Below, piece after piece: positions 1-13,534 of a DNA stretch of 64,000 nt. The notes under the pieces are model-generated. The model had not been told where the DNA came from. It saw only the letters and a list, made by a program, of their open reading frames with translations, and searched no databases. The stretch covers positions 2,275,501-2,339,500 of the forward strand of contig NZ_CP019334.1 of assembly GCF_002163675.1 (NCBI RefSeq), written 5' to 3'. How positions within the stretch are numbered: the first letter of the stretch is position 1; every line of letters begins with the position of its first letter. Origin of the DNA: Polaribacter sp. SA4-12. Its GTDB lineage: Bacteria > Bacteroidota > Bacteroidia > Flavobacteriales > Flavobacteriaceae. Both the position numbers and the translations under genes were made by a program.

Positions 1-891
1 GGTGGATATGTAACTAAATTTCCGCTTTTAATTGGTGATAAAGTTAAAAAAGGGCAATTAGTCGCTAGTTTAGAAAACACAGAATTTATTGAGATTCAAC
101 AAGAATATTTAGAAATTTCTGCACAACTCAATTTTCTAAAGAATGAGTATCAAAGACAAAAAACCTTGTTTGATGAAAAAATTACATCACAAAAAAACTA
201 TTTAAAAGCAGAAAGCACATATAAAGTTAGTTTGGCAAGTTATAACGGATTGCGTAAGAAGTTACAAATGATGAACATCAATCCAAATGCTGTAGATCAA
301 GGACAAATAACTTCAACTATAAATTTATATGCACCCATTAGTGGTTATGTTACAAAAGTAAATGTAAGTAATGGCTCTTTTGTTTCTTCATCAAGTGAAC
401 TTTTAGAAATTATAAACACAGATCATATTCATTTAGAATTAGCTGTTTTTGAGAAAGATGTTTTAAAAATTAAAAAAAATCAAAAAATTGAATTTAAAAT
501 ACCAGAATCATCAGATAAAACTTTTGATGCATCTGTGCATTTAGTTGGTACCTCTATAAATACTGACAGAACTATTAAGGTTCATGGTCATATTAATGAT
601 GAGGAAAGCAATAATTTTATTTCAGGAATGTATATTGAAGCAGCTATTATTTGTGAATCAAAAAAAGAAATATCATTACCAAAAAACGCTATTAAAAAAA
701 GTGGAGATATTTATTTTGCTTTGGTTTTAAAAGAACAAAAGGAGGATTATTATGTATTTAAAAAAGTAAAATTAGACATCGGGTTGCAAGATGAAAACTA
801 CATACAAGTAGTAAATTATAGTTTACTCGAAAACAAAAAGATACTTACCAAAGGTGGCTTTATGTTGTCAAATGATTTTAATGAAGATTAA
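1..891 (+). CDS. Efflux RND/HlyD-type periplasmic adaptor subunit (5' truncated by window)
   Basis: The reading frame is open from the first base, so the true start lies upstream and about 296 codons are visible. The product looks like the periplasmic adaptor that links an inner-membrane RND pump to an outer-membrane channel. The order seen is a lipoyl-like half (GGYVTKFPLLIGDKVKKGQL), a coiled-coil hairpin (about residues 35-90), the second lipoyl half (APISGYVTKVNVSNGSFV), then beta-barrel and membrane-proximal domains. The CusB/CzcB metal-efflux branch is likely but substrate cannot be told. The pump genes must lie to the left. Confidence 0.85.
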   Translation, partial: GGYVTKFPLLIGDKVKKGQLVASLENTEFIEIQQEYLEISAQLNFLKNEYQRQKTLFDEKITSQKNYLKAESTYKVSLASYNGLRKKLQMMNINPNAVDQGQITSTINLYAPISGYVTKVNVSNGSFVSSSSELLEIINTDHIHLELAVFEKDVLKIKKNQKIEFKIPESSDKTFDASVHLVGTSINTDRTIKVHGHINDEESNNFISGMYIEAAIICESKKEISLPKNAIKKSGDIYFALVLKEQKEDYYVFKKVKLDIGLQDENYIQVVNYSLLENKKILTKGGFMLSNDFNED

Positions 892-1059
892 ATTTCTTTT
901 ATTTTACATTTGAATTTAATCAACTTACAGTAAAATTATTATGTTACAATTCAACCAAAAAAAAATACTTTATAACATCTGAATTTAAATTATTTAGACA
1001 GAAAGAGTGAAAATTCAAAAACCAAACACACAAGAAGTATACAATTGAGAGCATTTTTG

Positions 1060-1067
1060 TATGTTTG
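1060..1067 (+). promoter_or_regulatory. -7 promoter element TATGTTTG
   Basis: TATGTTTG fits the Bacteroidota -7 consensus TAnnTTTG and is followed by CAGC. It covers an upstream in-frame ATG at 1065, which argues that translation starts at 1107 with a leader of about 35 nt. I see no convincing -33 TTG at the usual distance. Confidence 0.6.
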
Positions 1068-1106
1068 CAGCATATTATTATAAGTAATAAAACGCTATAC
1101 TCAAAA

Positions 1107-1610
1107 ATGAAAAAATTATTTTTAGCTTTCGGAATTTTAATTAGTTCTCTAGCCTACTCACAACAAGAAATTAAATTAGACATTGCTGATGCCTTAATTA
1201 TAAGGAGCATTGAGTTTTCTTATGAAAACTATTTAACCGAAGATTCTTCTTTTGGTATTTCTGCACTTTTTAATTTAGCAAAGCAAGATATTACTTTTAG
1301 ATATAATGAAAATACAATGATTACACCTTATTATCGTCATTATTTTTCTACGAACGAACAATGGAACTTTTTTGGTGAAGGGTTTATTGGGATCAATTCC
1401 GGTAAAACAGAAGTTACTAATTTAGGAGGTAGTGGTGTTTCTTATAAAAAATATACAGATGGCGCTTTAGGAGTTGCTGTTGGAACTAAATATGTTGCTT
1501 CTGGTGGTTTAATCATTGATTTATACGCTGGAGTTGGAAGAAACTTATTCGGTACAGACTCTCCTATTTTAGTTCCAAGATTAGGACTAAATGTTGGTTG
1601 GAGATTCTAA
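1107..1610 (+). CDS. Small outer-membrane beta-barrel protein
   Basis: The 167-residue product has a signal peptide (MKKLFLAFGILISSLAYSQ) and then alternating amphipathic strands ending in GLNVGWRF, with the terminal aromatic residue typical of outer-membrane barrels. Length and pattern suit an 8-strand porin-like or OmpW/OmpX-like fold. An in-frame ATG at 1065 would add 14 residues before the signal peptide and coincides with the promoter, so 1107 is chosen. A strong terminator follows at once, so the gene is probably monocistronic. No substrate can be inferred. Confidence 0.75.
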   Translation: MKKLFLAFGILISSLAYSQQEIKLDIADALIIRSIEFSYENYLTEDSSFGISALFNLAKQDITFRYNENTMITPYYRHYFSTNEQWNFFGEGFIGINSGKTEVTNLGGSGVSYKKYTDGALGVAVGTKYVASGGLIIDLYAGVGRNLFGTDSPILVPRLGLNVGWRF

Positions 1611-1630
1611 AGATCTCAATTATATATTAA

Positions 1631-1668
1631 AAATCCTCCTGAAATAGATAATTTCAGGAGGATTTTTT
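1631..1668 (+). terminator. Rho-independent terminator
   Basis: A perfect 15-bp stem (AAATCCTCCTGAAAT with its complement) and a short loop run into a T tract. It lies 20 bp after the stop of the barrel gene. Confidence 0.9.
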
Positions 1669-1781
1669 GATTTTATCAATAAGTTCTTCTAATCTTTTTC
1701 ATTTCCAATGTTAAGCTTTCAGGTCTAAAAACAACCTAAAAAACTGTTTTACAGTAACTTATGTTTATTTTACTCCTTATC

Positions 1782-1837
1782 AATGTTAATTTAATGTTAC
1801 CTAATAGTGTTTTTAATGTAATTTATCGGTATATTTG
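1782..1837 (+). promoter_or_regulatory. Promoter with 11-bp-phased AATGTTA repeats
   Basis: AATGTTA occurs at 1782 and 1793 and as AATGTAA at 1815, that is 0, 11 and 33 bp apart. TATATTTG, a perfect -7 match, is at 1830-1837. Read on the other strand the repeats are TAACATT, like the Pho-type arrays of the phosphate island, but here they point away from the gene. The promoter call is firm; a link to the phosphate regulon is tentative. Confidence 0.5.
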
Positions 1838-1873
1838 TGTAAGCAGAATGTTAATTACTAAAAACAAAAGACC

Positions 1874-2224
1874 ATGAAAAAAGCAATTTTACTCGCAATA
1901 TTATTTATATCAGCCTTAGGATTTTCACAAGAAAAAGAAACAACTTTTGAAAGAGATGGTGATTTAGTGAAAGCTACTTACTATTTTGATAACGGAGATG
2001 TTAAAGTTCAAGGTTTTTTTAAAGACAAAAAATTAACTGGTATTTGGACTAGTTTTGATAAGAAAGGAAATAAAACCCAAATTGCGCAATATAAAGAAGG
2101 TAAGAAAACTGGAAAATGGTTTGTTTGGAATAAAGAATCTTTAAAAGAAATTACTTACAATAATAATACTGTTGTAGGTGTTAAAGATTGGAGAGCTGAA
2201 ACTAAACTAGCCTTTAACAACTAG
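1874..2224 (+). CDS. Secreted MORN-like (YwqK-type) repeat protein
   Basis: This 116-residue protein has a signal peptide (MKKAILLAILFISALGFSQ) and three to four short beta-hairpin repeats of the form FDxxGxxxxxxxYKxGKKxGxW (DNGDVKVQGFFKDKKLTGIW, then KEGKKTGKWFVWNKE). The repeats resemble MORN or YwqK modules, which are common in small exported flavobacterial proteins of unknown role; the antitoxin name often attached to this family is not supported here. A -7 element lies 37 bp upstream and a terminator follows, so it is monocistronic. Confidence 0.75.
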   Translation: MKKAILLAILFISALGFSQEKETTFERDGDLVKATYYFDNGDVKVQGFFKDKKLTGIWTSFDKKGNKTQIAQYKEGKKTGKWFVWNKESLKEITYNNNTVVGVKDWRAETKLAFNN

Positions 2225-2246
2225 GAATTAAAAAAATATATCAATA

Positions 2247-2277
2247 AAAAAAGCAGGCTTAATAGCCTGCTTTTTTA
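2247..2277. terminator. Bidirectional terminator
   Basis: The stem AAAAAAGCAGGCT/AGCCTGCTTTTTT with loop TAAT is flanked by A and T tracts. It can end both the MORN-like gene on the plus strand and the lipoprotein gene on the minus strand. Confidence 0.9.
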
Positions 2278-2298
2278 TTTAAAAATATAATTAAAGTC

Positions 2299-4263
2299 TT
2301 ATAGACCTGCAGTTTTCCATGACCAAGAACTAACATCAACTTTAGTACCTGTTTTGTAATCTGCTGTTGTAGAAGCAGCAACTCCATCTATAATTACATT
2401 TGCTAAAGGACCATCATCTTTCATATCGATATTTTTAGCATATCCTTCTAACCAAATGTTAGTAATTGTAGCACCAGAAGTCTTTTTAAATTGTAAAGCT
2501 GTTCCATCTACTGTAGAGATAGCTGTTAAGTTTACAAACTTGGGGTTTCCATTTACTTTATCTCCTTCAAAAGCTGTAGAGAAACCAGTAATTGTATGAG
2601 AAATATAGGTATTTGTTACTGTACCATTCCAACCTTCTGTCCAATCTACAGAATCATCTTCATTGTTTTCTAAATAGATGTTTGTTGCAGAAACTGTTCC
2701 TCCAAAGAATTCTAAACCATCATCTGCTCCATTAATTACAGAAATATTTTCAATTGTAGTTCCAGAACCAACTCCATAAAAAGAGATTCCATTATATTGA
2801 GAATCTGCATTAATTTGAGCACCTGTTCCTTTAATTACTAAGTATTTAATAGATCCAGAATTATCTGCATCATTTGTTCCTCCGTAGATAAAACCACCAA
2901 CCTCAGCTTCAGCATCAACACCAGCAGAAGTTGTTGCATCACCACAGATTGTTAAACCTCCCCAATCACCTGCAGTTGCTGAAGGTGAAGAAATAACTAC
3001 AGGATTTGTAGCGGTTCCTTGAATATCTATTTTTCCACCTTTTAAAACAGCGATGTAAACACCTGTTCCACCATCTCTTGCTTCAATTTTAGTTCCTGCA
3101 GGAATTACTAATTCTCCTCCATCTTGAACAATGTAAGATGAATTTAAACTATAAACTACAGAAGCATCTAAAGTTACTTTACTTGTTACAGTTCCTTGTA
3201 AAACAGAAGTTGGTATAGAAACACTTGAGTTTACCCAAGTATAATCTGCAGCAGTAACAACTGGTGGATTTGTGTAAGATAATAATGGATTTGCAGCAAC
3301 ACCATCAATTAAAACATTTGTTAAAGCTCCATCATCTTTCATATCAATAGATACATCATAACCAGATAATGACAAACCTGTAATTGTACCTCCAGATTCT
3401 TTTTTAAATTGTAAAGCAGTACCTCCAACAGTAGAAACTGCAGTTATATTGTTAAACTTAGGATTACCGTTTACTTTATCACCTTCAAAAACAGTAGAAA
3501 AACCTGCAATTGTATGAGAAATATAAGCATTATCTACAGTACCATTCCAACCTTCTGTCCAGTCGATAGAATCATCTTCGTTATTTTCTAAGTATAAGTT
3601 ACTTGCAGAAACTGTTCCTCCAAAAAATTCAAAACCGTCATCAGAACCATTGATTACTGCAACATTACTAATTGTTGTTCCAGAACCAACTCCGTATAAA
3701 GAAACTCCATTGTATTGAGAATCTGCATTAATTTGAGCTCCAGTTCCTTTAATTACTAAATAGTTTATAGAACCTGAATTATCAGCATCATTTGTTCCTC
3801 CATAGATAAAACCACCTACTTCAGCTTCAGCATCAACACCAGCAGAAGTTGTTGCGTCTCCACAGATTGTTAAACCTCCCCAATCTCCAGGATTCCCAGA
3901 AGCAGAAGACATAAATACAGGATTAGATGCTGTACCTTGAATATTAATTTTACCTCCTTTTAAAACAGCAATATAAACACTTGTTCCTCCATTTAAAGCT
4001 TGTACTCTTGTTCCTGCAGGAATTGTTAAGGTTGCTCCTGACTGAACAACAAACGATGAATTTAAATTATAAACAGTACTTGCAGTTAAAGTATAATCTT
4101 CTTCTAAACCGCCATTCATTACACCAGAATTTAAGTTTCCAATAACTTCTGATGTTGGTTCTTCAATAATTATAGAAGGTTCTTCACTTCCACAATTTGT
4201 TAGTGTTAAAGTAACAATAGAAAATGCTACAATATTTAAAATTTTAAAAACTGATTTTTTCAT
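2299..4263 (-). CDS. Right-handed beta-helix lipoprotein with internal duplication
   Basis: The 654-residue product starts with a lipoprotein signal (MKKSVFKILNIVAFSIVTLT, then LTNCG), so it is probably anchored in the outer membrane. The rest is two tandem copies of a ~300-residue Gly/Asp/Asn-rich domain of beta-helix type. GDWGGLTICGDATTSAGVDA, YGVGSGTTI, IDMKDDG and EGDKVNGNPKF occur in both. The start at 4263 is preferred to the ATG at 4305, which overlaps the -7 element. It lies 130 bp downstream of a TonB-dependent receptor and carries a similar Pho-type array, so a surface role beside that receptor in phosphate or phosphoester uptake is inferred. No catalytic motif was recognised. Confidence 0.7.
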   Translation of the reverse strand: MKKSVFKILNIVAFSIVTLTLTNCGSEEPSIIIEEPTSEVIGNLNSGVMNGGLEEDYTLTASTVYNLNSSFVVQSGATLTIPAGTRVQALNGGTSVYIAVLKGGKINIQGTASNPVFMSSASGNPGDWGGLTICGDATTSAGVDAEAEVGGFIYGGTNDADNSGSINYLVIKGTGAQINADSQYNGVSLYGVGSGTTISNVAVINGSDDGFEFFGGTVSASNLYLENNEDDSIDWTEGWNGTVDNAYISHTIAGFSTVFEGDKVNGNPKFNNITAVSTVGGTALQFKKESGGTITGLSLSGYDVSIDMKDDGALTNVLIDGVAANPLLSYTNPPVVTAADYTWVNSSVSIPTSVLQGTVTSKVTLDASVVYSLNSSYIVQDGGELVIPAGTKIEARDGGTGVYIAVLKGGKIDIQGTATNPVVISSPSATAGDWGGLTICGDATTSAGVDAEAEVGGFIYGGTNDADNSGSIKYLVIKGTGAQINADSQYNGISFYGVGSGTTIENISVINGADDGLEFFGGTVSATNIYLENNEDDSVDWTEGWNGTVTNTYISHTITGFSTAFEGDKVNGNPKFVNLTAISTVDGTALQFKKTSGATITNIWLEGYAKNIDMKDDGPLANVIIDGVAASTTADYKTGTKVDVSSWSWKTAGL

Positions 4264-4293
4264 TTTTAGTTTGATATGGTTATTATTTTTATA

Positions 4294-4349
4294 CAAAGAA
4301 ATCATCTTATCCTTTACTTTTCTTTACCTAAACATTAATAGTATGTTAG
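4294..4349 (-). promoter_or_regulatory. Pho-box-like phased array and -7 box of the beta-helix lipoprotein
   Basis: On the minus strand CTAACAT-N4-TTAATGT (4349-4332) is followed in 11-bp register by GTAAAGA and TAAAGGA. TTTG then appears at 4297-4294, at the same distance from the last 11-mer as in the receptor, porin and PiT promoters. The -7 box itself (GATTTCTTTG) is weaker than in those promoters. Confidence 0.5.
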
Positions 4350-4393
4350 GGTTTCTAAGATTTTAACCGTTTTGTTAAGTAATCGTTAATTGA

Positions 4394-7195
4394 CTAAAAA
4401 GTATATTTTACACTTAATGTTAACTGACTTCCTTTTTTGTAAGACAATACAGTTTCATTGGTTTCTATATCTGTAATTAGACTCTTAACTAACTGTGTTT
4501 GTTTTATTTCTGGATTTAATAAATTTCTACCAACAAGCTTTACCATTAAGTTTTTATTAATTGCTTTGCTCAATACTAAATCTAGACTTACAAATCCTTT
4601 TTCTATAATTTCATCATTATATAACGATGCACTATTAGAAAAATCTTCTGGAGAACCTAAAGCGTAAATTTTATCTGAAGAATAATTACCAGTTAAAGTT
4701 GCTACAAATTCTTTTTCTTTATGATCACTAAAACTTAAAGAACCATTTGCAATGAAATCGGATGCTCCTTGTAAACTAGAATTGGTAACATCTTTATATT
4801 GAAAATCTTTTAGTAAATCTTGCTCTAACCACATTTTTGTAAGATTCGCTGTTAAATTTAGAACACCTTCATCATCAGCATTTTTTATTAAATCAGTTTT
4901 TGCTTCTAATTCGAAACCATAAACAGTTGCTTTTTCTCCTGTATTTGCATAAAAGAAGTATCCTGATGAACCTCTCGTTTGTGCTAAATTTATTGGATTG
5001 TTAATTTGCTTGTAAAATGCTGTTGCAGAAAAAAGTTGTCCTTTTTGTGGAAACATTTCATATTTTAAATCGAAATTATAAATTTCTGATTTTTCTAAAT
5101 CAGGATTTCCTTTAGTTACACGACCCGTTGGAGAAACATATTCAAAAGGAGATAATTCTTTAAACTCAGGTAATGTCTGTGTAATACTTGATGCAAAACG
5201 CAAGTATTTATTTTCTGATAATTCAAACTTTAAATTAACACTTGGGTATAAACTTTCGTAAACTCTATTTAAAGTCCCTACTCTTTCTCTACTATTAACT
5301 AAGTCATAATAGTTAGCAACATCCCAAATTGCATTTATTTCATCTCTTTCAAAACGAAAACCTAAATTACCAGATAATTTATTATCCAAAGCAAAATCGA
5401 AGTTTACAAAACCTGCTATAATCGATAAATCTGCTTCAAATCTATCTGCCGTTGAAGTTCTTAAAGTTAAACCGTTATTAAAACCTGTTGACGTAAATGT
5501 AGAAGACAACTCATCAATAGAAGGTGCTTTAGATCCTTTTGCTTTTACACCAACAAATAAAGATTTAAATGTTCTTTCTTTATATCTATAATTTAATCCG
5601 TAGTTTAAAGAATATGGTTTCTGATTATCCTCATCTTCTAAACCTAAAGCCCATTTATTTTCTACAAAACCATTGTATTCTGTATCTTGAATTTTTTGAC
5701 TCGATTTTCTTTGTTGAAAATCTCCAACATGTGCATATTGAATTGTTGATGAAGATGTAATATCTAAAATATTTACTTCATTTCTAATTCTATTTGGTTC
5801 TTCTGCTAAAACAAAATTGTAACCTCCAGCCCAGTTTAACGTATTATTCTCATTCCATTTATGCTCACCTAAAAGTTGATTTACAAACATTGTTGTTTGT
5901 CTAAAGTTTTGATCTCTTACAAAAGCGCCTTCTTCTTGCGGATCTTGATCAAAAACATAACCAAAACCTTTTCTTCCTTGTTCGTATAAATTATCCGTAG
6001 ATTTATTTACAAATAAAGTATTGTATCTAATCTTGTTGTTGTCATTTAATTTTAATCCAACATTTATATAACCTGTTGTATTTGTTTTAGAAATAAAACT
6101 TTCAACATCATTTGTAGCAGAAATAGCTCCATTAGAAACATCAGGAAAAGCTTTGTCTAAAATATTAGATCTAAAAGCTCTAAAAATTCCTTCTTGATAT
6201 TCAAATGATTTAGAATGAGAACCTGTAAGAAAGATAGAAACATCTTTTCCAAAAATCTCGAACTTTCTTCCTGCAGAAAATGAACCACTGTAATTTATAG
6301 GATTCGCTACTTTTTCTGTATCCCAACCTTGAAGCGTTACTAAGTTTTCTAAAGCGTATTGTTTTTTATGAAAACCAAAAGTTACATCATTATTAATAAC
6401 AGTATTTCTAAATGAGTTTGAAACATCTAAGACATTTGTATTTGTTCCTCCAGAAAGTGATATTGAATATCCTTTTTTAGAGTATTCTTTAGAATTTACA
6501 TCTACATTACCAGAACCTTGATCTGCATAACTAGCCGTTGTGTATGTTTTACTAATACCTACATTTTTAATAATGTTTGTAGAAAATAAATCTAGATTCA
6601 CGTTTTTGTTATCAACATCATCCGAAGGAATAGGCAAACCATTCATTGTTGTAGATAAATAACGATCTCCTAAACCTCTTATATAAATATTTCCTGAACC
6701 TTCACTCTTAGTTACCCCAGAAATTTTAGTAGTTGCATTTGCTGCATTTGAAACTCCTGTTTTTGCCAATGTTTGAGCTCCAATACTTTCTTTAATTACA
6801 ACTGCTTTCTTTTGATCTAGTAAAAGCGCAGAAACAGATTCTTTAGAACTAGAAGACCTAACCACAATTTCATCTAAAGAAACTCCTTCTTCTGCAGAAA
6901 GCACGCCATTAATAGTTACAGTTTCATTCGCTTTAATAATAACTGGCTTTTCAATTGTTTTATATCCTAAAAAACTAAAAACCACTATATGATTACCTGT
7001 TTTTACATTTAAAACATAATTACCATCAAAATCTGTAGTTGTACCAATGCTAGTTCCTTTAATTTGAACATTTGCAAAAGGCAATGGTTCATTGTTGGTT
7101 TCTTTATCTGTTAGTAGACCTTTTAATGTTCCTTTATCTTGAGCAACAACAAATTGACTTAAAGCTAAAAAAGTAATAAATAAAATTTTCTTCAT
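4394..7195 (-). CDS. TonB-dependent receptor with N-terminal carboxypeptidase-like domain
   Basis: This 933-residue outer-membrane receptor has a signal peptide (MKKILFITFLALSQFVVAQ), a CarboxypepD_reg-like beta-sandwich (about 22-110, GTTTDFDGNYVLNV), a plug domain (about 125-235, NIYIRGLGDRYLSTTMNGLP) and a 22-strand-type barrel ending LTLSVKYTF. Such receptors import substrates with energy from TonB-ExbBD. There is no SusD partner; a beta-helix lipoprotein follows instead. Divergence from a phosphate-type porin and a six-unit Pho-like array in the promoter point to phosphate or organophosphate uptake (inference). Confidence 0.85.
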   Translation of the reverse strand: MKKILFITFLALSQFVVAQDKGTLKGLLTDKETNNEPLPFANVQIKGTSIGTTTDFDGNYVLNVKTGNHIVVFSFLGYKTIEKPVIIKANETVTINGVLSAEEGVSLDEIVVRSSSSKESVSALLLDQKKAVVIKESIGAQTLAKTGVSNAANATTKISGVTKSEGSGNIYIRGLGDRYLSTTMNGLPIPSDDVDNKNVNLDLFSTNIIKNVGISKTYTTASYADQGSGNVDVNSKEYSKKGYSISLSGGTNTNVLDVSNSFRNTVINNDVTFGFHKKQYALENLVTLQGWDTEKVANPINYSGSFSAGRKFEIFGKDVSIFLTGSHSKSFEYQEGIFRAFRSNILDKAFPDVSNGAISATNDVESFISKTNTTGYINVGLKLNDNNKIRYNTLFVNKSTDNLYEQGRKGFGYVFDQDPQEEGAFVRDQNFRQTTMFVNQLLGEHKWNENNTLNWAGGYNFVLAEEPNRIRNEVNILDITSSSTIQYAHVGDFQQRKSSQKIQDTEYNGFVENKWALGLEDEDNQKPYSLNYGLNYRYKERTFKSLFVGVKAKGSKAPSIDELSSTFTSTGFNNGLTLRTSTADRFEADLSIIAGFVNFDFALDNKLSGNLGFRFERDEINAIWDVANYYDLVNSRERVGTLNRVYESLYPSVNLKFELSENKYLRFASSITQTLPEFKELSPFEYVSPTGRVTKGNPDLEKSEIYNFDLKYEMFPQKGQLFSATAFYKQINNPINLAQTRGSSGYFFYANTGEKATVYGFELEAKTDLIKNADDEGVLNLTANLTKMWLEQDLLKDFQYKDVTNSSLQGASDFIANGSLSFSDHKEKEFVATLTGNYSSDKIYALGSPEDFSNSASLYNDEIIEKGFVSLDLVLSKAINKNLMVKLVGRNLLNPEIKQTQLVKSLITDIETNETVLSYKKGSQLTLSVKYTF

Positions 7196-7217
7196 TTTAG
7201 TGTATAATTTACATCTG

Positions 7218-7295
7218 CAAAAGTCTACTAGTACTGTAAACCTTATGTTAGTTGTAGATTATGCTTGCATTACAGAAACATTAACTCAATGTTAA
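7218..7295 (-). promoter_or_regulatory. Six-unit 11-bp-phased Pho-box-like array and -7 box of the TonB receptor
   Basis: Read on the minus strand from 7295, successive 11-mers begin TTAACAT, TTAATGT, GTAATGC, ATAATCT, CTAACAT and TTTACAG; TAA holds the same position in the first five. The array ends at 7230 and is followed by AGTAGACTTTTGCAG, whose TAGACTTTTG (7227-7218) serves as the -7 region. Tandem 7-bp repeats with 4-bp spacers are the classical layout of a PhoB operator. Confidence 0.7.
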
Positions 7296-7308
7296 ATCGA
7301 AAAATTAA

Positions 7309-7364
7309 TTAACATTTTATTCATTTAGAGTAAACATTAATTTTAAATATGAGTTGCATTTTTG
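7309..7364 (+). promoter_or_regulatory. Pho-like array and -7 box for a putative small RNA
   Basis: TTAACAT at 7309 and TAAACAT at 7331 (two 11-bp steps) are in register with TTTG at 7361-7364, using the same offset as the porin and receptor promoters. The -7 region is CATTTTTG, one mismatch from TAnnTTTG. Nothing is annotated downstream except a terminator, so the likely product is a short RNA. Confidence 0.4.
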
Positions 7365-7369
7365 TAGCA

Positions 7370-7460
7370 ATCGAATGAGATTAAACGTCATCATAAATCA
7401 ATTAGTTTTTGTCAACTATTTTATATGACTAACTGCCTTTGGCCAAGGCAGTTTTTTTTT
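7370..7460 (+). ncRNA. Putative small RNA or attenuated leader between receptor and porin
   Basis: A candidate promoter at 7309-7364 and a strong terminator at 7431-7460 define a transcript of about 90 nt. It includes a small hairpin (TAGTT with AACTA, near 7403-7418) and the terminator stem. A 17-codon frame at 7375-7428 ends just before the terminator, so a leader peptide is an alternative. The porin has its own promoter downstream of the terminator, which favours an independent RNA. Known RNA families were not recognised. Confidence 0.35.
7431..7460 (+). terminator. Intergenic Rho-independent terminator upstream of the porin
   Basis: A perfect 9-bp stem AACTGCCTT/AAGGCAGTT with loop TGGCC is followed by nine T. 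It lies upstream of the porin gene and after no annotated gene. Confidence 0.85.
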
Positions 7461-7466
7461 ATTTTA

Positions 7467-7512
7467 ATAATACTACATTAACATTAACTTAACATAACTA
7501 TTAGTTATTTGC
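7467..7512 (+). promoter_or_regulatory. Pho-box-like array and -7 box of the porin
   Basis: ATAATAC (7467), TTAACAT (7478) and TTAACAT (7489) are spaced exactly 11 bp. The next 15 nt, ATTAGTTATTTGCAG, align without a gap to AGTAGACTTTTGCAG of the receptor promoter. The array sits where a -33 element would be, as PhoB sites do in activated promoters. Confidence 0.7.
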
Positions 7513-7532
7513 AGCGACAAAAACTAATAATT

Positions 7533-8762
7533 ATGAAATTATCAATACTACAAAATGTAGTAACAGTAATTTGTATTTCTGCTTTCTTAAGTATTAATGC
7601 ACAAGAGACTAATGCGCCTAAGTTTGGTAAAGGTCTATTTAATCTAGTAGGACAAGATAGTACTTGGACAATGAAAGTAGGTTTAAGGTTTCAAACGCTT
7701 GCCACTTCTCAGTGGGATGTAAGTAACGGTCTTACAAATCCAGAATCTTCAATGTTAATTAGACGATCTCGTTTAAAATTTGATGGTTTTGCTTTTTCTC
7801 CAAAATTAAAATACAAAGTAGAATTAGGTTTATCTAACAGAGATCAATCTGGCGCATCATATTACACACACGAAGCTCCTAGATATATTTTAGATGCCGT
7901 TTTAAAATGGAATTTCTCTGGAAATTTTGTTTTATGGTTTGGTCAAACAAAATTACCAGGAAACAGGGAACGTGTAATTTCTTCTGCAAACTTGCAACAA
8001 GTAGATCGTTCTTTATTAAATAGTAGATTTACTATTGATAGAGATATAGGAATGCAATTAAGACATAAGTTTAACCTCTCTGACAATTTTGTTGTTAAAG
8101 AAATATTTTCAATTGCCCAAGGTGAAGGAAGAAATATTACAAGAGGAAATCTTGGTGGTCATCAATATACAACTAGAGTTGAATTATTTCCTTTTGGAGA
8201 ATTTGCCGGTAAAGGTGATTATAAAGGAAGTGATTTAAAATTTGAGCAAAAACCAAAGTTATCTTTAGGTATTGCATATGATTTTAATAACAACGCCTCT
8301 AAAACTAGAAGTAATCAGGGTTCTTATATGTATATAAATGGTACTTCAGAAGGTTCTAGTGCAGATTTTTACCAAACTAACATTTCTACACTTTATTTAG
8401 ATGCAATGTATAAACATAAAGGGTTTTCTTTTATGGCAGAATATGCAAATAGAGATGCAGATGATCCTTATGCAAAAAATTCTGATGGAACTTTAACAGG
8501 AGATGAAGTACAAGTTGGTAATGGTTTAAATTTACAATCTGGATATATGCTTTCTAAAACAGTAGAAGTTTCTGGTCGTTATACAAACATTTCTTTAGAT
8601 AAAACGATAACTGGTAAAGGCGCAGAAAATCAATATACTTTAGGTTTATCTAAATATATTGCAGGACATAGTTTAAAAGTACAAACAGATTTAAGTTATA
8701 CTGATATCGGCTTTAAAACAGATCAATTATTATTTAGATTACAAGTAGATATTCATTTTTAA
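7533..8762 (+). CDS. OprO/OprP-family (phosphate-selective type) outer-membrane porin
   Basis: The 409-residue product has a signal peptide ending in FLSINAQ and a beta-barrel that fits the phosphate-selective porin O/P family: MKVGLRFQTLAT near the start, the RRSRLKFDGFAFSPKLKYK strand, FGQTKLPGNRERV, and the terminal strand LFRLQVDIHF. Such porins pass phosphate or other anions. Start 7533 is chosen over 7509, which sits on the -7 box. It is followed after 83 bp by the PiT transporter gene, consistent with outer- and inner-membrane steps of one pathway. Selectivity in this family varies, so substrate rests on context. Confidence 0.85.
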   Translation: MKLSILQNVVTVICISAFLSINAQETNAPKFGKGLFNLVGQDSTWTMKVGLRFQTLATSQWDVSNGLTNPESSMLIRRSRLKFDGFAFSPKLKYKVELGLSNRDQSGASYYTHEAPRYILDAVLKWNFSGNFVLWFGQTKLPGNRERVISSANLQQVDRSLLNSRFTIDRDIGMQLRHKFNLSDNFVVKEIFSIAQGEGRNITRGNLGGHQYTTRVELFPFGEFAGKGDYKGSDLKFEQKPKLSLGIAYDFNNNASKTRSNQGSYMYINGTSEGSSADFYQTNISTLYLDAMYKHKGFSFMAEYANRDADDPYAKNSDGTLTGDEVQVGNGLNLQSGYMLSKTVEVSGRYTNISLDKTITGKGAENQYTLGLSKYIAGHSLKVQTDLSYTDIGFKTDQLLFRLQVDIHF

Positions 8763-8776
8763 TTATTTATCAAAAG

Positions 8777-8822
8777 ATAACACAAACCTAACATAGACAA
8801 TTATTTATGTCTATAAATTTGC
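8777..8822 (+). promoter_or_regulatory. Pho-like array and -7 box of the PiT transporter
   Basis: ATAACAC (8777), CTAACAT (8788) and a weak AATTATT (8799) follow the 11-bp register, and TATAAATTTGC (8812-8822) places TTTGC at the same offset as in the porin and receptor promoters. TAAATTTG is a perfect -7 match. PiT therefore probably has its own promoter besides read-through from the porin. Confidence 0.6.
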
Positions 8823-8845
8823 AAAACTTAATTTAAACAAACAAA

Positions 8846-11098
8846 ATGGGAGATCCATATATTTTAATGTTAGTCGCTTTAGCTGTTTTAGCTATTGTTG
8901 ACTTAGTTGTGGGAGTTAGTAACGATGCAGTTAACTTCTTAAATTCGGCCATTGGCTCAAAAGCAATATCAGTAAGAAATATTATGATTATTGCTAGTTT
9001 AGGTGTGTTCTTCGGAGCAGTTACCTCTAGTGGAATGATGGAAGTTGCACGTAAAGGGATTTTTAATCCTAATATGTTTATGTTCCAAGACATTATGATT
9101 ATTTTTATGGCAGTAATGATTACAGATATTCTATTACTAGATATCTTTAACTCTTTAGGAATGCCAACATCTACAACAGTTTCTATTGTATTTGAGTTAT
9201 TAGGTGCTGCAGTTTGTATTTCTTTGTTAAAAATATCTGCTAACGATGCACAATCTTTTAATGATCTTTGGAGCTACATTAATCACGAAACAGCAACTAA
9301 AATTATTTTTGGAATTCTACTCTCTGTAGTTGTTGCTTTTTCTGTAGGAGCAATTGTACAATTTGCTTCTAGAATGATTTATTCTTTCAATTTTGAAAAG
9401 AGAGCCACTTATATTAGTGCTTTATTTGGTGGATTTGCAATTACAGCAATCACTTATTTTATCATTATAAAAGGAATGAAAGGAACTCCTTTTTATAAAG
9501 ACATCAAACATTTAATTGAAGGAAATACACTTTTAATTATATTAGGAAGTTTTGTTGCTTGGTCTCTTATTTCTCAAGTTTTAATCTCAACTTTTAAAAT
9601 TAATGTTTTAAAATTAATTATCGGAATCGGTACATTCTCTTTAGCAATGGCTTTTTCTGGAAATGATTTAGTAAACTTTGTTGGTGTACCAATTGCTGCA
9701 TGGAACTCTTACCAAGCTTGGGAAGTTTCTGGTATTGCTGCTGATGCATTCTCTATGGGTGTTTTAGCAAAAAAAGTACCATCTAACATTTGGTTATTAT
9801 TATTTGCAGGTGGTATTATGGTAATTACACTTTGGACTTCTAGTAAAGCTCAGAATGTAATAAAAACAGGGATTGATTTATCTAGACAAGGAGAAGGTCA
9901 TGAGAAATTTCAACCAAACCCTTTATCTAGAGTTGTTGTAAGAGCAGCAATGGGAATTAATTTCGGAATTAGTAAAATTTTCCCTAAACAGATGTTGGCT
10001 TTTGTAGATTCTAAATTTCAAAAACCAGTTATAGAATTACCTAAAGATAAAACATACGAATTACCTGCTTTTGACATGGTAAGAGCGTCTGTAAACTTAA
10101 TTGTTGCTGGTATTTTAATATCTATTGCAACCTCTATGAAACTACCATTATCTACAACTTATGTAACTTTTATGGTTGCGATGGGAACATCTTTAGCCGA
10201 TAGAGCTTGGGGTAGAGAAAGTGCCGTTTATAGAGTTGCTGGTGTAATAAATGTTGTTGGTGGTTGGTTTTTAACAGCAATTACAGCATTTTTAGCTGCA
10301 GCAATCGTTGCCTATTTAATTAGCTGGCATATGGTTATGATTCCTATTCTGTTAGTAGTTGTTGCTTTCTTAATTGGAAGAAATACATTAATCCACAGAA
10401 AGAAATCGAAAGAAGTTAAAAAACAAGTACATATTGAAAGAGCAGAATTAATAACTATTAATGGAGTTATTGAAGAAAGTGCAGATCATATTTCTGAAGT
10501 AATAAATCGTGTAAATAAATTATATACAAATGTTGTAAATGATTTAGCGAATCATGATTTAAATAAATTACGTAAAACAGATAAACACGTTGCTAAACTG
10601 AATGAAGAAATAGATAGTTTAAAAGATGGCGTTTTCTATTTCATTAAATCTTTAGATGAAACTTCTGTACAAGGAAGTAGATTTTACATTATGGTTTTAG
10701 GTTATTTACAAGATGTAGCACAATCTATTAGTTATATTTCTAGAGCAAGTTACAAGCACGTAAATAACAATCATAAGAACTTAAAGAAAGGTCAGATTAA
10801 AGATTTAAAAACAATAGACATTGCTTTATCTGATTTATTAACTAAGGAAGCTGCTATTTTTGAAAATAGAGATCTAGATAATTTGAATGCTCTTTTAGTA
10901 GAGAAAAACGAATTATTACAAGATGTAAGATCATCTATTGAAAAACAAGTAGCAAGAATTAGAACAGATGAAACGAGTCCTAAAAACACTTCGTTATACT
11001 TTAGTGTCTTATTAGAAACTAAAGATTTAATAAAAGCCCTAATGAGTTTATTAGAAACTTATGAAGAGTTTTATTTAAGTACAAAACAAGTGAAATAA
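8846..11098 (+). CDS. Inorganic phosphate transporter, PiT family, with C-terminal PhoU-like domain
   Basis: The 750-residue inner-membrane protein imports inorganic phosphate with a cation. About residues 1-500 form the two-repeat PHO4 membrane domain: DLVVGVSNDAVNFLNSAIGS near the N-terminus and AFSGNDLVNFVGVPIAAW in mid-protein, with PTSTTVSIVFELLGAAV and LSTTYVTFMVAMGTS as the paired repeat motifs. Residues about 535-750 are a charged helical domain of PhoU/DUF47 type, which in many species is a separate gene. Fusion of transporter and regulator suggests self-gated uptake. A terminator follows. Confidence 0.93.
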   Translation: MGDPYILMLVALAVLAIVDLVVGVSNDAVNFLNSAIGSKAISVRNIMIIASLGVFFGAVTSSGMMEVARKGIFNPNMFMFQDIMIIFMAVMITDILLLDIFNSLGMPTSTTVSIVFELLGAAVCISLLKISANDAQSFNDLWSYINHETATKIIFGILLSVVVAFSVGAIVQFASRMIYSFNFEKRATYISALFGGFAITAITYFIIIKGMKGTPFYKDIKHLIEGNTLLIILGSFVAWSLISQVLISTFKINVLKLIIGIGTFSLAMAFSGNDLVNFVGVPIAAWNSYQAWEVSGIAADAFSMGVLAKKVPSNIWLLLFAGGIMVITLWTSSKAQNVIKTGIDLSRQGEGHEKFQPNPLSRVVVRAAMGINFGISKIFPKQMLAFVDSKFQKPVIELPKDKTYELPAFDMVRASVNLIVAGILISIATSMKLPLSTTYVTFMVAMGTSLADRAWGRESAVYRVAGVINVVGGWFLTAITAFLAAAIVAYLISWHMVMIPILLVVVAFLIGRNTLIHRKKSKEVKKQVHIERAELITINGVIEESADHISEVINRVNKLYTNVVNDLANHDLNKLRKTDKHVAKLNEEIDSLKDGVFYFIKSLDETSVQGSRFYIMVLGYLQDVAQSISYISRASYKHVNNNHKNLKKGQIKDLKTIDIALSDLLTKEAAIFENRDLDNLNALLVEKNELLQDVRSSIEKQVARIRTDETSPKNTSLYFSVLLETKDLIKALMSLLETYEEFYLSTKQVK

Positions 11099-11115
11099 TC
11101 TCTATTTTACTTAAC

Positions 11116-11152
11116 AAAAAAAACCATGAAATTATTTTCATGGTTTTTTTTT
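11116..11152 (+). terminator. Rho-independent terminator
   Basis: The stem AAAAAAACCATGAAA/TTTCATGGTTTTTTT with loop TTAT lies 17 bp after the PiT stop. The rest of 11153-11332 holds no gene I can support. Confidence 0.9.
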
Positions 11153-11332
11153 GTAATAGTTTTACCCAAGTATTTTTTTTTAAAATAATTGATAATAAAA
11201 CGGAGATATCTTCTTCTTTAGATAAAGAGAAAACCGAATCATTACACCTCTTATTACTGTCTATTTTAGATTGATTTTGAAGGAATAAGAGCTAATCTAA
11301 TCGGTTTTTTTAGGTTTATGTAGTATTACTAT

Positions 11333-13534
11333 CTAAAACCAAAAACCTAGGTTAAACAACCAATAATTTTCATTCGTATCTGGAGACCAACTATATTTTA
11401 ATTCTATTGGCCCTATAAAAGCATCATAACTATAACCAATAGCATAACCAGATAGTACATTTTTAAACAAATCTATATTTTCAAAAACATTTCTATGTAA
11501 TCGACCATAATTTGCTATAAAAGAAGCATAATGATTCTCTGAAAAAGCATACCTCAAATTAAATTCTGTTTTTAAAAAAGTATCATCAGAAAGTTCAGCA
11601 AAATCATATCCATAGAAAGAAATAAAAGTATTAATATAATTTTGATTGTAGCCTCCCAAATAAAAATCAAAAACATCAGAATCTGTTTTATTCAAAGTAA
11701 AACCTGCCTCATTAGTCATTTTTAGAGTAAGTTTATCCCAAAAAGTAGTTGCAAAACCTAAGGTTCCTTTTGTTTGTGCAAAAGGTGTAAAATCTTCGTT
11801 GTAATCTGATGAAAGCATGTACCATTTAAAGTTTAAATCTGCAAAATATCCTTTAGTAGGAAAGCTTTTTTTATCATAAGTATCTAGCTTTAAATAACCA
11901 AAACTATTTAAATAATTACTATTATCAAAAGTAGTATCATGACTGCTTGCAGATGAAATTGTTTCTGTTTTTGCACTCACATATTTATGCTCTAAACCAA
12001 TACCTAAAGCAAATATTCTATTAAACGTTGTTTGAATAAAAAATTGATTTGTGATATCTGCATATCTTAAATTAATACTGCTTATTGCAGGAAACTGAGA
12101 AACTATTGGATTAAACTTAGAATTGATGTTAAAGTGATTATATCGAGATCTAAAACCATAACTTATATAGAACCCATTATCTACAAAATAATCTAAGTTA
12201 TACCTTAAGTTATCTCCTAAAATCATATCTATCGAAAACATATCGTTTTCTAATAATAAATTTTTTTGATTATAATTTACTAGAAGTCCAGATTGATATA
12301 ACAGATCATAATGAACACCTAATTTTAGATTTGCATTATCGTTAGACTCTTTTAAAGTGAATTTTAATGAGTAGGTGTTATCTTTCTTTTTAGTTAAATT
12401 ATAAGCTATTTTTTCGTAATTTTTTGTTGCAGATAGTAAATGAATTCTTTTAGTAATCTCTTTTCTTGATAGGTTATCTCCTACTCTAATTTTTACTTTA
12501 CCTAAAACAAAAGCTCTTGTAAAATTATTAGAACCCGTTAAATCAATATCAGAAATAAAGTATTTCTGATTATCAAAATTTAATTTCTTGCGTTCTTTTT
12601 TAATAGTTTGTTTTAAGGCTAATTCTTCAAAAACTGTTGTAAACTTCTTTGCTTCTTCAATTCCTTTTTCTAAAATTTTTTCTTTTTTATCAAAACTAAC
12701 AACATTGTATCCTTTAATTTCTGGATTAATATAAACATCTAACTTTTTCTTTTCTGCCCCACTTTTACTATACATCTGATAACTCACTATCTGATTCATA
12801 ATGTCTAAAACAGAGTTCAGTTTTTCTTTTTGAGACAATTGTCCTTCAACATCTACACCTATAACAATATCCATTCCCTTAGACTTCATAATAGTTACAG
12901 GAAAATTATTTGCTACACCACCATCAACCAATAACATATCATCTAAAACAACAGGGTTTAATAAAGTAGGAAAAGAGCCACTTGCTCTTAAAGCCAAAGG
13001 TAAAGAGCCTTTTTCTAACAAAACAGCGCCTCCATTTTCAATATCTGTAGCAATACAAAAAAAAGGAATTGGTAACTTATTAAAATCTGTAACACCTTCT
13101 ACTGAAGCTAATAATTCTAATAGAAAATTTAACACATTCTGACCTTTAGAAACTGCTTTTGGCAAACCTAAAGAACCATCTTTAACAGGTAATGTAATTA
13201 CTGTTTTCTCTCCGAATTCTTTTTCGAAAAAAGTTTCAGAATTTCTTGGTATTTTATCTTGTAGAAGAGAAATAAAATCTGTCTCTAAAACTATTTGTTC
13301 TATTTGTTCACCAGAATAGCCTACTGCATATAAACCTCCTATAATTGCACCCATACTTGTGCCACCAACATAATCTATCTGTAAACCAGCTTTATCAATT
13401 TCTTTTAAAACACCAATGTGAGCAAAACCTTTTGCGCCACCTCCACTTAAAACCAAACCGACTTTTGGTTGTTTTTCTTGACTATGAAAAACAATTGAGA
13501 ACATTAAAAAAGAAATAACTAAAAAATTTTTCAT
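11333..13534 (-). CDS. Patatin-like phospholipase with POTRA and outer-membrane barrel (PlpD type)
   Basis: The 733-residue product has a signal peptide, then a patatin domain (about 25-215) with oxyanion loop LSGGGAKGFAH, nucleophile GTSMG and catalytic DGG (LLVDGGVANNFPV). A POTRA-like segment (about 325-395, ISDIDLTGSNNF) and a BamA/TpsB-like barrel ending in LFNLGFWF follow. This is the architecture of type Vd autotransporters, in which a lipase is exported through its own barrel. The start codon overlaps the uvrC stop (ATGA), so the two are translationally coupled. Confidence 0.9.
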   Translation of the reverse strand: MKNFLVISFLMFSIVFHSQEKQPKVGLVLSGGGAKGFAHIGVLKEIDKAGLQIDYVGGTSMGAIIGGLYAVGYSGEQIEQIVLETDFISLLQDKIPRNSETFFEKEFGEKTVITLPVKDGSLGLPKAVSKGQNVLNFLLELLASVEGVTDFNKLPIPFFCIATDIENGGAVLLEKGSLPLALRASGSFPTLLNPVVLDDMLLVDGGVANNFPVTIMKSKGMDIVIGVDVEGQLSQKEKLNSVLDIMNQIVSYQMYSKSGAEKKKLDVYINPEIKGYNVVSFDKKEKILEKGIEEAKKFTTVFEELALKQTIKKERKKLNFDNQKYFISDIDLTGSNNFTRAFVLGKVKIRVGDNLSRKEITKRIHLLSATKNYEKIAYNLTKKKDNTYSLKFTLKESNDNANLKLGVHYDLLYQSGLLVNYNQKNLLLENDMFSIDMILGDNLRYNLDYFVDNGFYISYGFRSRYNHFNINSKFNPIVSQFPAISSINLRYADITNQFFIQTTFNRIFALGIGLEHKYVSAKTETISSASSHDTTFDNSNYLNSFGYLKLDTYDKKSFPTKGYFADLNFKWYMLSSDYNEDFTPFAQTKGTLGFATTFWDKLTLKMTNEAGFTLNKTDSDVFDFYLGGYNQNYINTFISFYGYDFAELSDDTFLKTEFNLRYAFSENHYASFIANYGRLHRNVFENIDLFKNVLSGYAIGYSYDAFIGPIELKYSWSPDTNENYWLFNLGFWF

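Follow-up and report, generated by a model that had tools for sequence, protein, structure and literature searches.

The window analysed here is a 64,000-nt stretch of the single-contig, 3.99 Mb genome of the marine bacterium Polaribacter sp. SA4-12 (Polaribacter group; positions 2275501-2339500). It contains an island in which a TonB-dependent receptor and a lipoprotein-like repeat protein are encoded on one strand and a porin and a PiT phosphate transporter on the other. The promoters of these four genes, described in the original prediction for this DNA, are a worthwhile find, though of a type already known; the surprise, absent from that prediction, is a fifth phased promoter followed by an unannotated RNA of ~91 nt between the receptor and the porin. 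The features needed first are given below in window coordinates, with all transcription starts placed by the position of TTTG alone.

2299..4263, minus strand: lipoprotein-like repeat protein gene, adjoining the receptor in relatives too
4394..7195, minus strand: TonB-dependent receptor gene
7309..7352, plus strand: promoter of the small RNA (sRNA), four in-phase 11-mers (TTAACATTTTA..TAAACATTAAT..)
7361..7364, plus strand: sRNA -7 box, TTTG
7369..7459, plus strand: predicted sRNA with three hairpins, its +1 placed 5 nt past the -7 box
7391..7396, plus strand: second sRNA segment UCAUAA, predicted by duplex calculation to complement UUAUGA over the porin start codon
7401..7413, plus strand: antisense arm AUUAGUUUUUGUC in the sRNA loop
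7432..7460, plus strand: sRNA intrinsic terminator, ACTGCCTT..AAGGCAGT and T-run
7516..7532, plus strand: porin 5′ leader GACAAAAACTAATAATT, with the sRNA target at 7516-7528
7533..8762, plus strand: porin O/P family gene (PF07396)
8846..11098, plus strand: PiT phosphate transporter gene (PF01384)

The case for the sRNA comes from covariation, matches to a covariance model across the family and folding energy. Its array reads TTAACATTTTA TTCATTTAGAG TAAACATTAAT TTTAAATATGA GTTGCATT TTTG (7309-7364), its predicted start is the A of AAUC, and its terminator lies just upstream of the porin promoter. The fold consists of a 5′ hairpin, a stem GUCAU/AUGAC presenting the loop, and the terminator (minimum free energy -19.2 kcal/mol, z -3.4). 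RNAalifold on the plain alignment gave the terminator only; the other two hairpins were chosen by eye and written in by hand; shuffling and sliding then served as the test. For comparison within the genus we took the island from 52 other genomes, namely every one of the 97 searched whose porin was full-length, intact and >=62% identical (the porins of G132 and G180, partial or with stops, were not counted as orthologues). Across 51 aligned genus sequences (49 distinct), with relatedness left uncorrected here and in all later shuffles and swaps, 83.0% of cells were paired against 77.8±0.6 after shuffling (0/500), 16 of the 23 pairs had changed on both sides (11.2±1.7 shuffled, 2/500), and double-change cells numbered 60 versus 24 in shuffles. 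The covariation score was 0.184 against 0.118±0.008 (0/500), and all slid versions scored lower. Pairing was found in 68% of cells in helix 1, 77% in helix 2 and 98% in the terminator, where four pairs had changed on both sides. The element has the covarying structure and terminator of a base-pairing regulatory sRNA.

Run on 299 family genomes, the covariance model matched 130 at E<=1e-3 and 94, the own genome included, at E<1e-5. The 36 genomes between these limits were not counted because the palindromic terminator and the porin leader also make the model fire on the reverse strand of genuine loci (21 of 110 matches). The family locus set comprises 89 of the 93 non-own genomes at E<1e-5. The antisense arm is present in all 89 and a complementary porin leader in 85; seven gave no regular-expression match, the leaders of L168, L219 and L224 were judged imperfect by eye, the match in L163 was false with the true leader farther on, and no leader was found within the stretch examined in L198, L201, L218 and L256. 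Among the first 29 family loci, the porin follows directly downstream in 26 (tblastn) and the PiT start lies within the flank in 20. L198 has no porin at this place: a PiT-type promoter and gene start come straight after the sRNA.

A strict sRNA pattern was found in 74 stretches from Polaribacter, Tenacibaculum, Winogradskyella, Algibacter, Gelidibacter, Eudoraea, Muriicola, Maribacter, Arenibacter, other genera and Bacteroidota bins; we take these genera to be Flavobacteriaceae. Three genomes have it on two contigs each (L285/L314, L320/L325, L301/L326), and a second copy is possible. Viral contigs held no match to the pattern, and none of 4227 Rfam families fell over the sRNA at E up to 1 (window 1-12000) or up to 0.5 (10 relatives). 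Searches of open-licence PubMed Central papers brought up, judged by title and abstract, no flavobacterial Pho box and no such sRNA. The sRNA arm occurs in 51 of the 53 genus genomes that have the porin, and in L132 arm and target were lost together, with weak model matches only (best 2.2e-4). In the 28 genus genomes without an orthologous porin that were searched (of 44), no model match was better than E 9.4e-4.

The sRNA loop is the exact complement of the inferred first 13 nt of the porin mRNA, GACAAAAACUAAU (+1 to +13), whose predicted start is the G of GACAAAAAC at 7516; without mismatch, the 13-mer occurs at only these two places in the genome. Arm and target lie 94-110 nt apart across genomes, so there is no fixed DNA spacing. 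The mean helix between arm and leader in the genus is 13.2 bp, compared with 12.65±0.07 for swapped leaders (0/20000). Cognate duplexes are also more stable than swapped ones, at -14.88 versus -13.88±0.10 kcal/mol in the genus (n=51) and -14.43 versus -13.52±0.09 kcal/mol in the family (n=81, L163 left out; 0/5000 in both). Nineteen genus genomes have a variant arm or leader, and seven of these show paired changes: the T-run and A-run are both shortened in L087 and L107, GTC/GAC is flipped in L118, and single pairs are replaced in L120 (G-C for U-A), L090 (G-C for A-U), L085 and L133 (U-A for A-U). Another three are tolerated by G-U pairing (L100, L130, L131). In the family, 24 loci have a changed core, and in six of them the cognate duplex beats both mixed ones (L179, L181, L222, L225, L227, L245). 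The second segment, UUUCAU in many family loci, complements AUGAAA at the porin start; over 80 family loci its helix is 6.8 bp, against 6.38±0.11 for swapped partners (0/300) and 5.38 for scrambled ones, with non-ATG starts misassigned in this test (GTG in L222). The sRNA and the porin leader are complementary and appear to have co-evolved.

The other promoters of the island share their organization with that of the sRNA:

7478..7499, plus strand: porin Pho-type box TTAACATTAACTTAACATAACT
7508..7511, plus strand: porin -7 box, TTTG
7230..7295, minus strand: receptor array, six in-phase 11-mers
7218..7221, minus strand: receptor -7 box, TTTG
8777..8798, plus strand: PiT Pho-type box ATAACACAAACCTAACATAGAC, one helical turn farther from TTTG
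8818..8821, plus strand: PiT -7 box, TTTG
4328..4349, minus strand: lipoprotein promoter half-sites CTAACATACTATTAATGTTTAG, two turns farther from TTTG
4294..4297, minus strand: lipoprotein -7 box, TTTG

The half-site common to these promoters is TTAACAT, with a period of 11 bp. The porin repeats are TTAACATTAAC/TTAACATAACT; the receptor has CTAACATAAGG/TTTACAGTACT and four more in-phase 11-mers, the PiT gene ATAACACAAAC/CTAACATAGAC and then one unrelated 11-mer, and the lipoprotein gene CTAACATACTA/TTAATGTTTAG and then two. According to the original prediction, the last 11-mer of each array is followed at a rigid distance by a 15-nt block containing TTTG. The four blocks are present as written, each once, with TTTG at positions 9-12 (receptor 7215-7229 and lipoprotein 4291-4305 on the minus strand, porin 7500-7514 and PiT 8810-8824 on the plus strand), and the shared helical phase was borne out. 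The rigid distance was not, as the last clear half-site lies 8 nt from TTTG for receptor and porin, 19 nt for PiT and 30 nt for the lipoprotein, and the 11-mers cited as last in the PiT and lipoprotein arrays contain no recognisable half-site. In porin and receptor the half-sites begin at 19 and 30 nt from TTTG, and in the other two farther out; the promoters have in common their phase (TTTG preceded by n x 11 + 8 nt), not the distance. A hairpin between the PiT boxes and the PiT -7 box, striking in single genomes (own, L129), proved not to be general and was dropped.

To compare phases we trained a half-site matrix on porin orthologues only, the window porin included, and slid it over promoters anchored on TTTG. 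Promoters with no anchor were left out, namely 6 of 51 for the sRNA (no TTTG in the searched stretch), 3 of 53 for PiT, and some receptor and lipoprotein promoters. Among relatives' promoters, phase 0 was the best of 11 for two divergent receptor types, PiT, two divergent lipoprotein types and the RNA promoter, for PiT once a wrong anchor (16 promoters kept, phase 8) had been replaced by one that kept 50 (phase 0). With each of the four kinds (receptor, PiT, lipoprotein, RNA) counted once, agreement with the porin by chance is ~(1/11)^4 = 7e-5. The best single half-site, in phase by chance in 1/11, was in phase in 50/51 genus porin promoters (the training set), 26/27 receptor, 12/13 lipoprotein type 1, 27/50 PiT and 25/45 sRNA promoters, and in 80/81 family porin promoters. 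Among the 1073 TTTG sites of the window, the five from the island rank 1-5 when scored by their two best in-phase half-sites (sRNA second) and 1, 2, 3, 4 and 6 when scored by adjacent pairs (sRNA sixth), the lipoprotein site being marginal (8.3 versus 8.2 for the next site) and the porin site belonging to the training set. An exact tandem TAACAT repeat also occurs at 1783-1799 (minus strand), upstream of a small MORN-like gene (plus strand), with no in-phase TTTG among the top 14 sites.

The -33 region almost never carries a TTG (porin 0/51, receptor 1/27, lipoprotein type 1 0/13, RNA 3/45; PiT not counted), an absence compatible with the proposed class II activation. Against it, the -7 box keeps only TTTG and the distance is not rigid. 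The mechanism put forward in the original prediction is plausible, of a kind already known, and partly supported. The F. psychrophilum sigma-A box is given as TAnnTTTG at -12 to -5 (PMC9723704). For the most part, the island promoters do not carry this full box and keep TTTG alone.

The island arrays show the tandem 11-nt direct repeats and 7-nt conserved core of a Pho box, which PMC4415409 describes as two 11-nt direct repeats. As in the boxes of PhoB/PhoP there, units run head to tail with seven conserved and four variable bases (PMC4415409); in contrast, the core is TTAACAT here and CTGTCAT in E. coli, and the island arrays reach six units and stand before a TTTG -7 box that has no -33 partner. 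The genome encodes three OmpR-type DNA-binding domains: one protein has PhoB as its best match among the families listed and is followed by a PhoR-like kinase, one is RprY-like, and one seems by eye to begin with a hydrophobic stretch. Of 29 receptor loci in other genera, nine have phoB-phoR divergently beside the homologous receptor (within 1.5 kb), and tandem TTAACA-like repeats are seen by eye in the stretch between phoB and receptor.

In F. johnsoniae, whose genes we matched to the island by gene order and kind rather than by sequence, Fjoh_0541-0546 run GT, OprP, PhoR, PhoB, TonB receptor and lipoprotein, and Fjoh_0544-0546 are induced at low phosphate (Pi): PhoB 3.06, receptor 8.02, lipoprotein 9.91 (FC column of Table 1; log2FC according to the text; PMC8115612). 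This PUSIV cluster resembles the island in having a TonB receptor followed by a lipoprotein, and the 9/29 relatives in its adjoining phoBR; it differs in that the phoBR of the Polaribacter genome lies ~90 kb away, and the consulted part of PMC8115612 mentions no sRNA. Two porin O genes of Bacteroides fragilis respond in opposite ways (PMC3547664): BF0375 (+3.55 in wild type, -2.70 in the phoB mutant) and BF2289 (-3.16 and +1.37). The proposal of a Pho-type regulator at the 11-bp repeats is well supported by layout, the PhoB-like protein, phoB adjacency and F. johnsoniae induction. By itself the motif does not pick out a genome-wide regulon, with no excess over a reversed control (19 versus 21 with <=1 mismatch; 6 versus 7).

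On balance, we favour with somewhat better than even confidence a PhoB-driven sRNA that blocks porin translation within a PhoB-controlled phosphate-uptake unit. Under phosphate limitation, PhoB would bind the head-to-tail 11-bp TTAACAT repeats, which share one helical phase ahead of a -7 box lacking a -33 box, and would bring RNA polymerase to the promoters of the four island genes and of the sRNA. The sRNA loop would then pair with nt 1-13 of the porin mRNA and the second segment with its start codon, so that ribosomes could not start. Such a block of initiation is expected because, in a leader of 17 nt, the sRNA would cover both +1 to +13 and the AUG. The same regulator would switch on porin transcription and, with it, an RNA that restrains porin translation. 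This incoherent feed-forward loop is the simplest circuit under PhoB because the porin and RNA boxes share one phase. The sRNA sites are probably weaker because they are more degenerate, and porin boxes outscore sRNA boxes with the matrix derived from the porin; we infer an earlier onset for the porin than for the sRNA. The expected behaviour would be a pulse, with porin made at mild limitation and shut off at deep limitation while the receptor-lipoprotein route stays on.

Several observations weigh against this account. Nine of the 19 variant genus genomes have an unmatched helix position (L084, L099, L102, L103, L106, L109, L110, L111, L115), and the other 18 of the 24 changed-core family loci are one-sided, some G-U neutral and several weakening the duplex. 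An extra A in the porin leaders of L184, L204, L253 and L219 would bulge the helix, and their sRNAs have not changed to match it. The helix over the start codon is weaker in the genus (6.0 versus 5.69±0.14, reached by 8/300 swaps), only 17/74 family sRNA promoters have their best single half-site in phase, and L126 keeps the target with no model match to the sRNA in its genome. The TA of TAnnTTTG is missing from most -7 boxes (present in porin 0/51, receptor 1/27, lipoprotein 1/13, RNA 14/45). The genome's PhoB scores 216.5 bits against TIGR02154, under the curated cut-off of 296.2, and the F. johnsoniae PF07396 porin Fjoh_0542, beside phoBR, is not low-Pi induced (-1.3, p-adj 0.245; PMC8115612). 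The uncorrected relatedness noted above counts on the same side.

Other readings of these data must be weighed. A real sRNA that pairs with the porin leader could instead activate, by shielding the extreme 5′ end of the mRNA from 5′-end-dependent decay; pairing from the inferred +1 would suit this, as would a box phase shared by RNA and target, as in a coherent loop, but a second segment over the start codon should block initiation in a 17-nt leader, and we regard protection as unlikely. It is also conceivable, at a slightly lower level of belief, that the two arms act in cis within one long read-through RNA, a hairpin past the terminator hiding the porin start as an attenuator. Their order on the same strand, with a terminator between, permits this, yet between them stand a conserved Pho box and -7 box that belong to the porin itself (80/81 in phase in the family), and the terminator is kept (98% of cells paired).

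The regulator may have been misnamed, an OmpR-family protein other than PhoB reading the repeats and the island answering a different envelope signal. The presence of three OmpR-type DNA-binding domains, one RprY-like, and the sub-cut-off score of PhoB leave some room for this, but phoB adjacency in 9/29 relatives with repeats by eye in the intergenic stretch, low-Pi induction of the F. johnsoniae genes and a transporter from a phosphate transporter family argue for PhoB, and we find the alternative improbable. Most doubtful of all is that the island has four class II Pho promoters only, with the inverted repeat a protein-binding DNA dyad: high conservation of the arm sequences would fit, whereas variable spacing (94-110 nt), compensatory arm changes, and covarying hairpins with a terminator speak for an RNA. 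We retain the PhoB-driven sRNA acting on porin translation. That it is an undescribed, family-wide Flavobacteriaceae sRNA whose phase-matched PhoB-type boxes form a built-in incoherent feed-forward circuit, with compensatory mutation across many genera, we hold only slightly more probable than its opposite.

Further observations concern the island's other genes. The lipoprotein-like protein (2299-4263) has no match in Pfam or PDB. Receptors of relatives (e.g. L085, L105, L106) fall into two divergent types, with 69-80% or 36-41% identity to the window receptor (4394-7195), and divergent receptor types carry divergent lipoproteins behind a nearly identical receptor promoter, as if the receptor-lipoprotein cassette had been exchanged behind a constant control region. 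Elsewhere in the genome, a second TonB receptor (G000:2538766-2541309; L339:12767-15310) is followed by a lipoprotein-looking gene with no Pfam match (L339:10948-12756) and has, ahead of a TTTG, two TTAACAT repeats that keep the island's phase (PiT type); judged by its sequence, this pair is a candidate remote member of the regulon. The PstS profile PF12849 found nothing above its cut-off in the whole genome (G000). PiT may be the main phosphate importer because the single PF12849 match is weak and resembles a LysR regulator by eye.

Among known systems, the Rfp sRNAs of F. psychrophilum are likewise independent sRNAs, some conserved beyond the species; the part of PMC9723704 consulted describes Rfp18 and proteases, and one of the Rfp sRNAs may correspond to the present sRNA. 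The enterobacterial porin sRNAs MicF, MicC and OmrA/B also pair at the start region of a porin mRNA. This one differs from them in its Pho-type promoter, its place on the same strand directly upstream of one evident target, its pairing from +1, and its occurrence in another phylum. Bacteroides DonS-type cis-antisense RNAs similarly place an outer-membrane uptake locus under RNA control, but they overlap their target on the opposite strand and this sRNA does not.

To our knowledge, few Bacteroidota regulatory RNAs have a target supported by co-evolution. For this sRNA, start and regulator are predicted, one clear target stands out and compensatory variants occur in nature; with these in hand, sRNA control in Bacteroidota, whose mRNAs mostly lack Shine-Dalgarno pairing, can be tested directly, in a group that matters for marine phosphorus turnover.

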